Source: a virus. From it: 22,183 nt of DNA. The DNA lies in IMG/VR virus record IMGVR_UViG_3300037847_002840, positions 1-22,183 of that record, one strand, 5' to 3'. Every line of letters begins with the position of its first letter. Position 1 is the stretch's first letter. Shown here piece by piece: positions 8,404 through 22,183 of the stretch. The notes under the pieces were generated by a model. It was not told the DNA's origin and did not search any database. It saw only the letters and a program-made list of their open reading frames with translations. Both the position numbers and the translations under genes were made by a program.

Positions 8404-8692
8404 CGCTGAGCAGCACGCATTTGAGTCGGCACCATCTGAAGCGTGTGGGCTGGTTGTAGATGGTCAGTACTTTCGATGCAGAAACATTGCGGATGATCCA
8501 TGCCTTGATTTTGTTCTGGACAGTCGAGATTATGCGCTTGCTGCGCTAACAGGCACTATTGAGGCGGTGGTTCACTCGCACCCACAAGGCGGTCCAGCAA
8601 GCGATGTTGATCTTGAGTCATGCAAGGGCACAAAGCTGCCATGGCACGTTTTCTCTGTACCTGAAAAGCAATGGTCAACTATCAATCCTTAA
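8384..8692 (+). CDS. JAB/MPN metalloprotease-like half of tail protein K
   Basis: A 102-residue protein equal to the N-terminal JAB (JAMM) domain of lambda K. JAMM residues are visible: Glu19 in 'PSEACGLVV', His64 and His66 in 'VVHSHP', Ser73 and Asp76. The gap between His66 and Ser73 is six residues, one fewer than in the classical H-x-H-x7-S-x2-D. After the motif, 'LPWHVFSVPEKQW' matches the lambda K pattern before its second domain. Lambda K joins JAB and NlpC/P60 in one 199-aa chain. Here the chain stops and a second gene starts 22 bases earlier. The likely role is processing or placing the tail tip, perhaps acting on peptidoglycan stems. Substrate unknown. Confidence 0.85.
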   Translation: MQDFRFDAEQHAFESAPSEACGLVVDGQYFRCRNIADDPCLDFVLDSRDYALAALTGTIEAVVHSHPQGGPASDVDLESCKGTKLPWHVFSVPEKQWSTINP

Positions 8693-9063
8693 TTGGCAGG
8701 CAATGGGACTACGGCAAGTTTGATTGCTTCAGTCTTGTACGCGACTGGTTTGCTTTACAAGGGATTCACCTGCCCGACTTTGAGCGTCCAAAAGACCTAG
8801 AGACCTGCAGCAGTGTCTTTTTGCGAGAGGCCAAAAACCTAGGGTTTGTGCTGGTGCCTTTGGAGCGAAGACAGCCTGGCGATGTTGCGATTATGCGCCT
8901 TGGAACGGCAACTCCAATGCACGCGGCTGTGTTGGTGGACTATGACCGGATTCTGCATCAGCGGCAAGATTCTTTAAGTGCGGTAGAGCCGTTAGGGCGA
9001 TACTATGTGAACAGCATTGCAGCCGTGTTTCGCTATGCAGCAGGTCGTCCGACTGCTGGGTGA
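8671..9063 (+). CDS. NlpC/P60 peptidase half of tail protein K
   Basis: A 130-residue cysteine peptidase-like protein, equal to the C-terminal domain of lambda K. Catalytic candidates are Cys19 in 'YGKFDCFSLVRDW', His84 in 'PMHAAVLVD' and His96 in 'RILHQRQDS'. The 'QPGDVAIMRLG' segment before the His is typical of NlpC/P60. The family cleaves peptide stems of peptidoglycan, and in tails it is thought to help DNA entry. The start ATG lies 22 bases inside the JAB gene in the -1 frame. I see no slippery heptamer there, so two separate chains are expected. The end overlaps the I gene by 29 bases. Confidence 0.9.
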   Translation: MVNYQSLIGRQWDYGKFDCFSLVRDWFALQGIHLPDFERPKDLETCSSVFLREAKNLGFVLVPLERRQPGDVAIMRLGTATPMHAAVLVDYDRILHQRQDSLSAVEPLGRYYVNSIAAVFRYAAGRPTAG

Positions 9064-17835: not shown

Positions 17836-18198
17836 ATGATCAAGCGTCTTGTTTTTGGTGCAGCCGCTGGCGCACTTGCCTTGGCTCCCCTCTCTGCCCG
17901 CGCAGATTGGTATGTCAACCCTGAGTTCAACGGTGCCAGCTTGGGCGACGAGTACTTGGGTGGGACGGTAAATTTCGATCTGGGCTATGAAGGCTCTTCA
18001 GGTGCCTACAGCTATTACATCCAGGGCGGACCTGCTTGGGTGATGCCAAATGGCTCTGACAATGAGATTAGGTTCGCTGGCAAGTTTGGCGGTGCTGTCC
18101 AAGCTTCTGAGGACGTCTCTGTTTACGGCGAACTGAGTGCAATGTCTGGCGACAAAGTGTCTGTCGGTTCAAAGGTTGGTTTGAAGTACACCTTCTGA
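17836..18198 (+). CDS. Secreted barrel-like outer-membrane protein
   Basis: A 120-residue protein with a clear Sec signal peptide (MIKRLVFGAAAGALALAPLS, cleavage likely after ARA at residue 23). The mature 97 residues are rich in Gly, Tyr and Ser and alternate polar/non-polar in strands ('FDLGYEGSSGAYSYYIQGG', 'EIRFAGKFGGAVQASEDVS', 'SKVGLKYTF'). The last residue is Phe, the usual recognition end of outer-membrane beta-barrels. The size allows only a short barrel or an oligomer. Secreted beta proteins of this kind occur in marine cyanophages as I recall. Modifying the host surface (for example blocking superinfection) is a speculation. A terminator follows. Confidence 0.7.
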   Translation: MIKRLVFGAAAGALALAPLSARADWYVNPEFNGASLGDEYLGGTVNFDLGYEGSSGAYSYYIQGGPAWVMPNGSDNEIRFAGKFGGAVQASEDVSVYGELSAMSGDKVSVGSKVGLKYTF

Positions 18199-18286: not shown

Positions 18287-18481
18287 ATGAGCACCAAACT
18301 CAACGGCAACAGGTTCTCCCCAATGGGTAGCCGGGTTCCAACAGAGCTTTTGCCAACAGCTATCCGTTATGAACATGCACGCGCAGTGCTGTTTGATCAA
18401 TTCGGTCAACACAGCAAAGCTAGAGAGTGCGAGAAATTGAAGCGCTATTACGAGCGCCGTAGCATGGATGAGTGCATTTAA
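18287..18481 (+). CDS. Small basic helical protein of unknown function
   Basis: A 64-residue protein starting 'MSTKLNGNRFSPMGSRVPT' and continuing with two probable helices, 'TAIRYEHARAVLFDQFGQ' and 'HSKARECEKLKRYYERRS'. The helical pair has a TPR-like look (Ala/Leu spacing, 'H-x-KARECEKL'), but one pair is too little to call. It is the first gene after a terminator, so a promoter is expected between about 18200 and 18287, although I cannot point to convincing -35/-10 boxes. The next gene starts 5 bases after its stop. The function is not recognised. Confidence 0.6.
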   Translation: MSTKLNGNRFSPMGSRVPTELLPTAIRYEHARAVLFDQFGQHSKARECEKLKRYYERRSMDECI

Positions 18482-18486
18482 GACTC

Positions 18487-18720
18487 ATGCAAAAGGTCTA
18501 CAACGTGCTTGGCGTGCTGGGCTTTGTGATGTCTGGAACGCTGGTTGGGCTAAGTATTGCTGCCTTTGCTCAAATTCCAGGAATGATCGACGACATGGCC
18601 GCCGACATGATGGACGACATCACCGGCAAAGTGACTGACATGGTGCCGGGTCAAATTGATCAAGCCATGCCAGAGTTGCCAACCAGCACTGGACCGGCTG
18701 TGCCGTTCAAACTTCCATGA
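18487..18720 (+). CDS. 77-aa membrane protein with acidic/Met-rich tail
   Basis: The product has an N-terminal hydrophobic span (about residues 6-30, VLGVLGFVMSGTLVGLSIAA), then an acidic Met/Asp-rich helix ('MIDDMAADMMDDITGKVTDM') and a Pro-rich end (VPFKLP). The start was set at ATG 18487. The upstream in-frame GTG 18472 lies inside the previous gene and adds only MHLRL. The stop overlaps the DUF3310 start as ATGA. I recall similar MQKV-type single-span proteins in marine cyanophages. It could be a signal anchor, so the tail may be periplasmic. Holin-like function is possible but unsupported. Confidence 0.6.
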   Translation: MQKVYNVLGVLGFVMSGTLVGLSIAAFAQIPGMIDDMAADMMDDITGKVTDMVPGQIDQAMPELPTSTGPAVPFKLP

Positions 18721-18941
18721 GCGATCAGGTTAATTCACCAGCGCACTACACCAAAGGTCGCGTCGAGGCGATTGAGGTGATTGAGGATGTGGTCGCTGGT
18801 GCGCCTGATGCCGTGACCGGCTACTTGGTCGGTCAAACAATGAAGTATCTGCTGCGGGCATGGCACAAGGGCAATGCAATGCAAGACCTGCAAAAAGCGG
18901 CTTGGTACTTGAATCGCGCTATCGACAGGTTCAACGCTTAA
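18717..18941 (+). CDS. DUF3310 protein
   Basis: A 74-residue protein matching DUF3310: 'VNSPAHYTKGRVEAIEVIED' at the N-terminus, then 'TGYLVGQTMKYLLRAWHKG' and 'MQDLQKAAWYLNRAIDRF'. The conserved order is N-x-P-x-HY, a Glu-rich helix, G-x-x-x-KY-x-x-R and a final WYL helix. The family is widespread in phages and includes part of the T7 gp1.7 protein, a thymidylate-related nucleotide kinase. Most stand-alone members lack a proven function. A nucleotide-metabolism role would be inference. It starts on the previous stop (ATGA) and ends tail-to-tail with the minus-strand gene, the stops overlapping. Confidence 0.85.
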   Translation: MSDQVNSPAHYTKGRVEAIEVIEDVVAGAPDAVTGYLVGQTMKYLLRAWHKGNAMQDLQKAAWYLNRAIDRFNA

Positions 18942-19282: not shown

Positions 19283-20048
19283 GCCTGAAATTCGTGAGAT
19301 CAGTGTGCAAGCGATTGGCGTCCCTTCGATTTCCGTAGGCAAGCCAATCCCACCTCCTGTTTTACCAGCAGCACCTCCAGTTACGTCAGCAGCATTTCCA
19401 GTTATTGATATGCCTGGCTGTGTGCGTGCCCGTATCGGCAAAGGAACTGGCGTTCAAACGTTTGAAGATGATGAGCGTGGAACGGTAACGCTGTGCGATG
19501 GAACGGTTCCAGTCTTCGAGGCACCTGATTACAGGCCGCGTGACTTTACGTGGGTGCAACCGCCAAAGACAGAAAGTAAAAAGCCAGAGCCAAAAGCCCC
19601 GGCCGTAATCCCCTCTGTTGATGTGCCGAGTCCTGATCTCGACAACTCAAGGTTGCCACCAGATCCACCGTGCCCAGCTTTCGGCGCGAAAGAAATCGGA
19701 TCGTTTAACAAATTAGGGACAGAGGTCTTGGCGGGTTATGAGCTGCAAGACGGCAAGTGCGTAAAGATTTGGGATCCTGTGCCTGTCGCACAGGTCATCA
19801 ATAACTACGTGCCTGATGCTGGGCCGACAGTATCAGTTGCCGTGACTGCCGCGATTGCCACTACAACAGCCATCTTGAGCAAGCCGATTGCATCAGTGCT
19901 GCAAAAGCTCGCCAAGCCGCTTACGAAGAAGGTCGTGAAGAAGCTTCTTTTGAGAAAGGAGAAACCGGTATCTTTACGGGAGCGGGTTTTGGCGCAGAGA
20001 GATCGGAATCGCGCACGAATGGCTTTACGTCGGGCTGTGGGTAAATGA
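19281..20048 (+). CDS. Pro-rich cyanophage protein with membrane span and basic tail
   Basis: A 255-residue protein starting 'MPEIREISVQAIGVPSISVG', then Pro-rich, with 'FPVIDMPGCVRAR', 'TLCDGTVPVFEAPDY', and a Pro/Lys linker at about 95-130. A 'CPAFGAKEIGSFNKLGTEVL' block precedes a hydrophobic span (about 180-206, VSVAVTAAIATTTAILSKPI) and a very basic C-terminus (KKVVKKLLLRKEKP ... RDRNRARMALRRAVGK). I recall this architecture (MPEIREI start, 'IDMPGC', 'LCDG', RNRA-x-RALR end) in marine cyanophages, where it is hypothetical and probably structural. The last 128 bases overlap the minus-strand 260-aa gene tail to tail. Confidence 0.75.
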   Translation: MPEIREISVQAIGVPSISVGKPIPPPVLPAAPPVTSAAFPVIDMPGCVRARIGKGTGVQTFEDDERGTVTLCDGTVPVFEAPDYRPRDFTWVQPPKTESKKPEPKAPAVIPSVDVPSPDLDNSRLPPDPPCPAFGAKEIGSFNKLGTEVLAGYELQDGKCVKIWDPVPVAQVINNYVPDAGPTVSVAVTAAIATTTAILSKPIASVLQKLAKPLTKKVVKKLLLRKEKPVSLRERVLAQRDRNRARMALRRAVGK

Positions 20049-20703
20049 TCTCGTGAGTGTGGCCTTCAACAGGGATCGGCTTGAGCACTACGTCATGACA
20101 GATCGGCTTAAAGGGACTGTCATCTGAAAAGCCATAGCCTTCCCGGATGGCAGTTGCACAAGCCTTTAGGCGACCCATTTCATAATTAAGCCTCTTCTCA
20201 GCGAGAGCTTGCTCATACAAGGCAACTTGTTTACGTGCCGCTTGTTTGCACAACTCAATCGGCTGACGATCCAAAGGGATTGAAAAAGTGGCTGTGATGC
20301 CGAAGTTATGGCTGAAATTTTGGCGATAACCCGTCCTCATCTTTTTGTAGTAGAGGATTTTCCCAGGGTTATCGGGCACTCCATCTGGGCCGTCATTCCC
20401 GTCTTTATCCTTTTTCCCCTTGTTGTCGCTGGTGTCGTAAACGGGTTCGTTGTAATACTCGTTGCCAGGCAGGCCGTATGAGTTTGTGGTTGAGACAAAT
20501 GGGCTGATGTTGAGCGTGGCTGTATCGCACTGAATGCCTGATCCATAAAACTGCCTCATGTACTGTCCAGGGTTGATTTGAACAGCCTGATTAACGACTG
20601 AACCGCTGCTGTTGCTGACAGGTGCAGCAGTTGCGTTCATCTGTGCTGCTGCTGGCGCTCCATACGTCAAACCAAGCAATAGGAAGCTTGCCGCTGCTTT
20701 CAT
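19921..20703 (-). CDS. Secreted protein, last gene of minus-strand operon
   Basis: A 260-residue protein with a Sec signal peptide (hydrophobic 'AASFLLLGLTYGAPAAAQ', cleavage near residue 21). The mature part has 'SGSVVNQAVQINPGQYMRQF', 'YGSGIQCDTATLNISPFVS', a charged Asp/Gly/Lys loop (about 95-115), 'NFGITATFSIPLDRQPIELC' and a helix with 'AARKQVALYEQALAEKRLNY' and 'LKACATAIREGYGF'. Four mature cysteines could form disulphides. The C-terminus is Pro-rich and overprints the plus-strand gene by 128 bases. I recall similar signal-peptide proteins (NQAVQ-x-NPG start, 'IPLD..P.ELCK') in marine cyanophages. Function is unknown. Coupled to the gene before it by ATGA. Confidence 0.72.
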   Translation of the reverse strand: MKAAASFLLLGLTYGAPAAAQMNATAAPVSNSSGSVVNQAVQINPGQYMRQFYGSGIQCDTATLNISPFVSTTNSYGLPGNEYYNEPVYDTSDNKGKKDKDGNDGPDGVPDNPGKILYYKKMRTGYRQNFSHNFGITATFSIPLDRQPIELCKQAARKQVALYEQALAEKRLNYEMGRLKACATAIREGYGFSDDSPFKPICHDVVLKPIPVEGHTHEIIYPQPDVKPFVRDSDLSAPKPAPVKIPVSPFSKEASSRPSS

Positions 20704-21086
20704 TGGCTAAAGGTGCTGGTGGAATCGACGACAGCCTCAATGACTGTTTCGCGACTGATGTTGACCTTTTCGATCAGACCAGGACCATTGAAGGTTTCTG
20801 CAAACTGGAACGGTTGACCAGCTGCAGTTTGTTTCCAGTTACCGCGTGTTTGGAACGTAATGCTGTTTTTGCCTGGAGTAGGACTGACAATGCCGTTCAC
20901 AGGCTGAACGTTCTTGCCAGACACTGTGTACTCAAAGCCAGTGCGATAAGACTCGGAGACAATCGACTCTTTGACCACAGTCTTTGACTCAGTGCGGGAG
21001 GTGACCACACCAGTAGCGAAGTTAGGGACAACTGGGACGGCTACTGCTGGAGCTGGTAACAGCAGCAGAAGAATTAGCCGTTTCAC
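20700..21086 (-). CDS. Secreted protein, third gene of minus-strand operon
   Basis: A 128-residue protein with a strong signal peptide (MKRLILLLLLPAPAVA, cleavage near residue 16). The mature part reads 'VPNFATGVVTSRTESKTVVK', 'FEYTVSGKNVQP', 'SITFQTRGNW', 'AAGQPFQFAETFNGPGLIEK', and ends 'VDSTSTFSQ'. It shares the landmarks Y-[ST]-VSG and G-x-x-F-x-F-x-x-x-F with the product of the next gene upstream (21083-21577), so the two may be paralogues. It contains no cysteine. ATGA overlaps on both sides suggest fixed stoichiometry by coupled translation. I recall cyanophage homologues with the 'NF-T-T-G' and 'PFQF' blocks, listed as hypothetical. Confidence 0.72.
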   Translation of the reverse strand: MKRLILLLLLPAPAVAVPVVPNFATGVVTSRTESKTVVKESIVSESYRTGFEYTVSGKNVQPVNGIVSPTPGKNSITFQTRGNWKQTAAGQPFQFAETFNGPGLIEKVNISRETVIEAVVDSTSTFSQ

Positions 21087-21577
21087 CGTGTAGTTAGCTC
21101 AGTAACGACTTGACCGATTGCACTGGTGTTTGCCCCGCCAGCCGTCACCGTGATTGCGCCTGCAGTAGAGATTGTGCCCGCTAGATCTCCTGCAGTTCCT
21201 GCAGCTGTGCTGGTGATATCAGAAAAGGCGGGCACAGCTCCCACTGTTGGAGCGGAGGTTGGAATTGTGTCGCCTGCCTGGAACGAGTTACTGAAGCTGA
21301 ACGCTGACCCGTTTGTGGCTTGAGTTGCAGTGACAGCAGTCAAAGCATTGACGCCATTAGTGTGAGTGCCCAGGCCGCCAACAGCGCCAGCAGTAGTGCC
21401 GTCAGTGGTGTTGACCCCACTCCCGCTCACGGAATAGCTGTTGCCTTGTCTAATAGCACGAGTTGACGCACCACCGACATCTAGTTGAAGACTGCTGCTA
21501 ATTCGGTGGGTGAGATCAGCCTTGGCAGGCAATGCAGCTGCCAATGTGATGCCCAATACCAAAAGTGTGCGCTTCAT
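21083..21577 (-). CDS. Secreted Gly/Thr/Ala-rich protein, second gene of minus-strand operon
   Basis: A 164-residue protein with signal peptide (MKRTLLVLGITLAAALPAKA, cleavage near residue 20, before DLTHR). The mature protein is low in charge and rich in Gly, Thr, Ser and Ala, with 'ISSSLQLDVGGASTRAIRQG', 'SYSVSGSGVNTTDG', 'NGSAFSFSNSFQAGD', a Thr/Ala-rich repeat-like region (about 105-140) and the end 'GGANTSAIGQVVTELTTR'. It looks like a beta-rich surface or fibre-like protein. Landmarks are shared with the 128-residue protein encoded just downstream. It is linked to neighbours by ATGA on both sides. Function is unknown. Periplasmic or outer-surface location is inferred from the signal peptide. 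Confidence 0.72.
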   Translation of the reverse strand: MKRTLLVLGITLAAALPAKADLTHRISSSLQLDVGGASTRAIRQGNSYSVSGSGVNTTDGTTAGAVGGLGTHTNGVNALTAVTATQATNGSAFSFSNSFQAGDTIPTSAPTVGAVPAFSDITSTAAGTAGDLAGTISTAGAITVTAGGANTSAIGQVVTELTTR

Positions 21578-21852
21578 TTGGTGGTTGAAGTGGTGCTTTT
21601 ACTTTCAAGGTTAACGCTTTCATCTTTTTTCTTCTTGCCTGTTCTGTTCATGGTCAACCCGTAGCTAGCTGCAGTCGAACTAAGCAGTGATGCGCTGAAG
21701 GTCACGTCGATTTGACCTTTGAAATAACCGACGTAATTAGCCGTGATAATCGCCATCGCCCACAGCATGATTGTGATGCGGACAAAGTCACCTAACCATC
21801 CATTGCTGTGGTCTTCCTGTTCCTGGCCTTGTGCTTCCTTGCTTTCTGCCAT
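21574..21852 (-). CDS. Membrane protein, first gene of minus-strand operon
   Basis: A 92-residue protein. An acidic N-terminus (MAESKEAQGQEQEDHSNGW) precedes a membrane span (about residues 23-45, 'FVRITIMLWAMAIITANYVG'), a possible second shorter amphipathic stretch (SASLLSSTAASYGLTM), and a Lys/Ser/Thr-rich end. The arrangement suggests an inner-membrane anchor with a possible hairpin. I recall cyanophage proteins with 'GW-x-GD-x-VR-x-x-IM-x-WAM-x-IIT-x-NY' that match closely. Holin-like size and layout are noted, but there is no endolysin beside it. The gene leads the secreted-protein operon, and its start lies 23 bases from that of the divergent gene at 21876. Confidence 0.7.
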   Translation of the reverse strand: MAESKEAQGQEQEDHSNGWLGDFVRITIMLWAMAIITANYVGYFKGQIDVTFSASLLSSTAASYGLTMNRTGKKKKDESVNLESKSTTSTTK

Positions 21853-21875: not shown

Positions 21876-22130
21876 ATGGTGGTTGAAGTCTGGGCTGCAG
21901 TAGCTGGAGCGTCTGTCGGCGTAGCTTCAGCTGGACTGACGGGGATGAGTCGTCAGAGTCAGCAGGGACGTGACTCCCTGATACGCCTTACGACCGCTGT
22001 AGACAACCTAGCTAGCCGCCTTGATGTGCTTCACGCAGACATCAGGACTCGTGACCAAGAGATTTTTGCGAGACTCGCAAATCTGGAGCAGTCAGTAGCG
22101 CGATTGGAAGGGCACAGCAATAGGAACTAA
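21876..22130 (+). CDS. Membrane-anchored coiled-coil protein, divergent from the operon
   Basis: An 84-residue protein with an N-terminal hydrophobic segment (about residues 3-22, VEVWAAVAGASVGVASAGLT) and then a regular coiled coil: 'LIRLTTAVDNLASRLDVLHA', 'DIRTRDQEIFARLANLEQSV', 'ARLEGH'. Hydrophobic residues recur every 3-4 positions from about residue 35 to the end. AGAGG (21867-21871) lies four bases before the ATG. I recall small 'VEV-x-A-x-x-AGA' coiled-coil proteins in marine cyanophages with no assigned role. The layout resembles some phage spanins or holin antagonists only superficially. The 23-base gap to the minus-strand start must contain or adjoin divergent control. Confidence 0.68.
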   Translation: MVVEVWAAVAGASVGVASAGLTGMSRQSQQGRDSLIRLTTAVDNLASRLDVLHADIRTRDQEIFARLANLEQSVARLEGHSNRN

Positions 22131-22183
22131 GGTATTGATGCTGTTCAAAACAGTCTCATGCTTTTAGTACTCAAGCCCTTGGT

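Follow-up and report, generated by a model that had tools for sequence, protein, structure and literature searches.

The gene cassette described here stands an even chance, judged from sequence, of being the lysis module of marine cyanophages, in which a small membrane protein (M92) would act as the holin and three Sec-secreted proteins (S164, S128 and S260), together with a fourth protein, C255, would act on the outer envelope. It was analysed in a 22,183-nt stretch of viral DNA, hereafter the window (positions 1 to 22,183 of IMG/VR record IMGVR_UViG_3300037847_002840). The cassette itself has been noticed before; the lysis assignment proposed for it, which draws on gene context, is new to the literature consulted.

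A sequence-only reading had placed four minus-strand open reading frames (92, 164, 128 and 260 aa) in the window, and all four are found where it put them (Table 1). It had chained them by three ATGA overlaps; the 4-nt coupling holds at every junction, but the DNA reads ATGA at only two of the three, M92/S164 (AAATGAAG) and S128/S260 (CAATGAAA), and GTGA at S164/S128 (CGGTGAAA). The three signal peptides that it recognized are evident in S164 (MKRTLLVLGITLAAALPAKA-D), S128 (MKRLILLLLLPAPAVA-VP) and S260 (MKAAASFLLLGLTYGAPAAA-Q), and are of the ordinary signal-peptidase I type; none of these proteins has a lipobox or a Cys near the end of the signal peptide. Cys is wholly absent from the homologous pair S164 and S128; S260 has four such residues, invariant or near-invariant. 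In M92, residues 20-38 form a hydrophobic transmembrane (TM) segment, and another conserved stretch is of the DPTFIASVFTG type. Each of the four genes matches a PHROG of its own (1e-15 to 1e-70), and S128 and M92 match Pfam DUF6322 and DUF6450 directly, above the curated cut-off. Four genes, taken earlier for the whole unit, are too few: the convergent plus-strand C255 gene belongs to it, and its 3' end overlaps that of S260 by 128 bp (19921-20048). In several relatives, C255/S260 overlaps measure 28 to 232 bp.

Table 1. Cassette genes and their neighbours in the window.
Feature	Position	Strand	Families	Description
M92	21574..21852	-	phrog_721 / Pfam DUF6450; T4-GC 218 family	92 aa; small membrane protein; holin candidate
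S164	21083..21577	-	phrog_564; T4-GC 237	164 aa; Sec-secreted; paralogue of S128
S128	20700..21086	-	DUF6322 / phrog_650; T4-GC 236	128 aa; GTG start; Sec-secreted
S260	19921..20703	-	phrog_848; T4-GC 235	260 aa; Sec-secreted
C255	19281..20048	+	phrog_570; T4-GC 234	convergent to S260
PSTAB	18472..18720	+	phrog_568; T4-GC 414	'plasmid stability' gene; one N-terminal TM (12-30)
Phage_OMP	17836..18198	+	PF24653	secreted; resembles an outer-membrane beta-barrel; often found near the cassette
CC84	21876..22130	+	phrog_26178	divergent; N-terminal TM and predicted coiled coil

Profile annotation of 112 loci (80 from IMG/VR and 16 from GTDB, besides known phages and the window, counted together with a sub-locus of its own) identified S260 in 111 ORFs, C255 in 109, S128 in 107, M92 in 97 and S164 in 93; C255 is as constant as the secreted genes. 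Three orders dominate among these loci: the window type, [CC84<] M92> S164> S128> S260> C255< PSTAB< OMP<; the T4-like, S164> S128> S260> C255< PSTAB< M92<; and the podovirus order, C255> M92> S128> S260>. Order conservation, proposed earlier as a check, bears the unit out: the genes are not scattered, and their order recurs in about 110 relatives, which together with the separate PHROG match of each gene places the cluster far beyond chance. Loci in which M92 lies apart, on the opposite strand, still retain S128 and S260.

The suggestion that this is an undescribed system fails. T4-GC 218, 219, 234, 235 and 237 and a 'plasmid stability' gene were reported as a cluster in 15 of 16 T4-like cyanophages by Sullivan et al. 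(2010; PMC3037559), who surmised that the genes cluster for functional reasons and that the cluster is mobile, and gave no function; the available part of that paper contains no link to lysis, no extension to podo- or siphoviruses and no overlap analysis. In the Syn33 GenBank record, T4-GC 237, 236 and 235 are convergent with T4-GC 234, 219, 414 ('plasmid stability') and 218. The window keeps the same gene families in the same relative order (M92 = 218, C255 = 234, S260 = 235, S128 = 236, S164 = 237, PSTAB = 414) and represents a siphovirus-type member of this cyanomyovirus cluster.

By tblastn, S260 is found in 442 phage records, S128 in 412 and S164 in 323, nearly all of them cyanophages. 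The cassette genes occur in 300-440 cyanophage records, whose phages are of the myo-, podo- and siphovirus types. The 16 contigs obtained by scanning genome collections, fragments of marine MAGs and picocyanobacterial single-cell genomes, resemble phage contigs in their titles and gene content. No copy is clearly host-chromosomal, and a host origin was provisionally rejected. Cassette contigs (L096-L100, L102-L107, L110 and L111) also sit in public genome bins assigned to bacteria and archaea (Nonlabens, Lewinella, Formosa, Chloroflexota, Euryarchaeota), probably as contamination. A PDB sequence search found no relatives of the cassette proteins, a search of defence families found no match for the cassette, and no NCBI-named family was informative.

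M92 is likely a holin; this assignment, made from gene context, is the firmest of those proposed here. With 92 aa, a TM at 20-38 and a K-rich tail, M92 has the size and topology of holins, which measure about 60-160 aa and have one or more TM segments and a charged C-terminus; in relatives it is found beside C39/endolysin-type and lysozyme genes, as expected of a holin gene. Among the commonest families in the neighbourhood of window-type cassettes, a PHROG scan identified the 'endolysin' phrog_10051, and the matching gene carries a C39-like peptidase domain. Thirty siphovirus-like loci, all of them non-podovirus, have M92 upstream and more than 1.5 kb of flank; in 29 of them (the exception is L100) a C39/endolysin-type gene lies divergently just before M92. 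A 4-nt overlap joins the M92 stop to a C39-like gene in L056, L062 and L097. The gene after M92 in L081 encodes a 182-aa membrane protein, and the next one a Phage_lysozyme protein (PF00959, 3e-20) with a C39-like half; in freshwater DSL-LC03, a C39 protein, a phage lysozyme (6e-22), a barrel, M92 and a C255-like protein are encoded in this order in one operon. The lysozyme domain was seen only in these two, and the C39-like domains are putative peptidoglycan hydrolases. In most T4-like phages, M92 does not adjoin a hydrolase gene. The window ends at 22183, just past CC84 and before the expected hydrolase position; because a C39 ORF lies about 456 nt upstream of M92 in close relatives, the hydrolase gene is expected near 22,310, about 130 nt beyond the end.

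In T7, holin 17.5 occupies the place before the TerS/TerL genes. In P-SSP7, P-SSP2 and 9515-10a, C255-like, M92, S128 and S260 genes stand directly before TerS-like and TerL genes, and podovirus M92 is, by analogy of position, in the T7 holin slot. The cassette resembles lambda S-R-Rz/Rz1 and T7 17.5/18.5/18.7 in having a small membrane protein adjoining peptidoglycan-hydrolase genes, and T7 also in its equivalent position in podoviruses.

Other neighbours add to this context. In relatives, CC84 separates M92 from the C39/endolysin-type gene; its match to the Rz-like phrog_89 reaches only E 0.059, and it might serve in lysis as an accessory or i-spanin-like protein. PSTAB encodes an 82-aa protein with a single N-terminal TM and an acidic tail, and its 'plasmid stability' label looks wrong. 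T4-GC 219 (phrog_605; L002:9354-9923 and relatives) occurs in T4-like members only, often between C255 and M92, and has an N-terminal TM and a hydrophobic Gly/Ala-rich C-terminus; none was seen in the window. Elsewhere on the plus strand, the window encodes a DUF3310 protein (18717-18941) with a sub-threshold match (E 0.001, 19.7 bits against a cut-off of 25) to Tad4, an inhibitor of type I Thoeris, and, in the tail module, an NlpC/P60-type tail peptidase (8671-9063; TIGR02219, 1e-6, below the family cut-off) of a kind typical of lambda-like tails.

Most T4-like relatives carry a late-promoter motif, a further likeness to holin-endolysin-spanin cassettes. Upstream of S164, an exact TAAATA lies 60-70 nt before the ATG, taken as the script-chosen start, in 26 of 43 T4-like loci, mostly as CTAAATA or as TATAAATA, the T4 late-promoter core; ATAAATA is found there in 12 of the 43 versus 1.9 in shuffles. 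The window's own cassette yielded no sigma-70-like promoter. Of the functions that the sequence-only reading had floated, lysis is favoured by this late motif, the hydrolase adjacency and the podovirus slot, while nothing was found in favour of superinfection exclusion or a virion-surface system.

The S128/S260 junction differs between the window and most of its relatives. About 38 loci, the window included, have the S260 start in the ATGA junction. In 66 others (L002, L004, L006-L008, L010-L014, L048 and more), the S128 stop codon is TAA or TAG and only rarely TGA, the junction ATG is absent, and the S260 signal peptide is encoded within the S128 3' end in the -1 frame. Of these 66 loci, 61 keep the frame open for 135 nt or more, versus 10.4 expected with synonymous codons shuffled; the same test on the window-type class gives 0 versus 0.7. 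An ATG, GTG or TTG is present at -165, -171 or -177 in 51 of the 66. The open -1 frame and the upstream starts suggest that in most cyanophages S260 is probably translated from inside S128, out of frame, through a long overlap of about 165 nt in most relatives; in the window the two genes overlap by 4 nt. Synonymous-site conservation is weakly raised, too weakly to be taken as proof of dual coding, and the stop-codon shuffling test is decisive. No single -1 slippery heptamer was found by eye in the aligned S128-S260 junctions. Some GenBank start sites may be unreliable.

About 20 Prochlorococcus and Synechococcus phages are among 91 phages without spanins; the outer membrane of these hosts, it was suggested, may be fragile (Kongari et al., 2018; PMC6139136). 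The cassette genes are present in P-SSP7, P-SSM2, P-SSM4, P-HM1, Syn33, Syn9, S-SM2 and others on that list (PMC6139136). Whole-genome profile searches found no S260, M92 or C255 in S-PM2, Syn5, P60, PSS2 and S-CBS4, also spanin-less; the cassette is therefore not a general answer, and other solutions must exist.

Holin-endolysin-spanin cassettes differ from this one, which has no lipobox o-spanin and instead encodes three signal-peptide proteins and the convergent, cationic membrane protein C255. The lipobox of the o-spanin in a two-component spanin is missing from S164, S128 and S260; to the out-of-frame overlapping or embedded gene pair of such spanins, the S128/S260 overlap, about 165 nt in most relatives but 4 nt in the window, is at most a possible parallel. 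C255 is Pro-rich (13% Pro), with four Cys, a weak TM at 181-199 and a C-terminal tail of charge +16. A unimolecular spanin has an N-terminal lipobox and a C-terminal TM; the C255 sequence contains the C-terminal TM, and neither a lipobox nor a signal peptide. Within its 255 aa, helix 199-216 is cationic and amphipathic (moment 0.62, charge +4), a possible likeness, toward the C-terminal end, to disruptins, short cationic amphipathic peptides that act on the outer membrane, such as the 56-aa gp28 of coliphage phiKT; C255 differs in its length and its Pro-rich, Cys-containing domain. phiKT is also on the spanin-less list (PMC6139136).

AlphaFold2 models, built from 64-sequence alignments, predict two strands of about 24 residues with a small insert between them for S128 (pLDDT 85.7) and four strands with a 41-residue helix for S260 (pLDDT 73.8). 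Foldseek searches of the PDB with S128 returned lysenin/aerolysin-type stems and phage tail proteins, none significant; the best toxin-pore match, lysenin, has an E of 0.16, and a pore-forming toxin was rejected. Against a viral structure library, the significant S128 matches were its own family alone. S260 hints at TolC through a strand-PL-helix motif, and TolC-family names top its Foldseek list; an outer-membrane factor was nevertheless rejected (best E 0.42; hhalign probability below 1% to TolC and CusC). The Syn5 structural protein gp58, considered as an S260 homologue, gave no match.

In the proposed mechanism, S164, S128 and S260 would leave the cytoplasm through Sec late in infection and stay in readiness in the periplasm or outer membrane; M92 would open the inner membrane for the neighbouring peptidoglycan hydrolase; and the secreted proteins, with C255, would take the place of spanins by breaking or permeabilising the outer membrane of the cyanobacterium. 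C255, Pro-rich, Cys-bearing, membrane-attached and strongly cationic, may take part in this step. Outer-membrane disruption by the four proteins is plausible, and the evidence from their genes leaves it evenly poised. More tentatively, they might constitute a third kind of outer-membrane disruption machine, neither spanin nor disruptin, in which long-beta-hairpin proteins would assemble in the outer membrane or periplasm, perhaps as a physical complex, and be triggered with C255 upon M92 opening.

T4 RI is a secreted periplasmic antiholin, and the secreted proteins might, in its style, regulate the timing of an M92 holin from the periplasm instead of breaking membranes, as their co-transcription with M92 in the window type would allow; but a timer would not need as many as three or four secreted proteins that are conserved together and have long beta strands, and S128 and S260 persist where M92 is encoded elsewhere, which makes this unlikely. 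The exported proteins and the Phage_OMP barrel, encoded in one cluster, could alternatively change the outer membrane against later phages, through superinfection exclusion or envelope remodelling. Such exclusion functions are usually early and accessory, however, and a cassette with a late-promoter motif, hydrolase neighbours and no defence-family match, near-universal in T4-like cyanophages, makes this explanation quite unlikely. A role in host physiology is improbable: cyanobacterial Sec delivers proteins both to the periplasm and to the thylakoid lumen, and the products of a cassette restricted to cyanophages, near psbA/psbD/talC in some T4-like phages, could act on photosynthetic or envelope membranes and prolong infection, but hydrolase adjacency and the podovirus position beside late packaging genes speak against it. 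Most improbable are ordinary virion or assembly proteins: some cyanophage virions do hold many unknown proteins (PMC10665884, PMC9602691), but signal peptides would carry the products away from cytoplasmic assembly, the Syn33 record by virion-proteomics authors labels them hypothetical, Sullivan et al. (2010; PMC3037559) list them separately from virion proteins, and the M92-like gp131 of S-CREM2 does not appear as a virion protein in the part of the published table available. The S-CREM2 table was discounted as evidence on the cassette, since that phage holds only the M92-like gene.

Few killers of the ocean's primary producers are as numerous as marine cyanophages, and engineering of cyanophages has been reported (PMC8776855). 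The lysis reading would offer named genes, in tractable phages (Syn9, P-SSP7), for testing directly how cyanophages open the outer membrane, and a clue to the roles of Pfam DUF6450 and DUF6322, neither of which has an assigned function.
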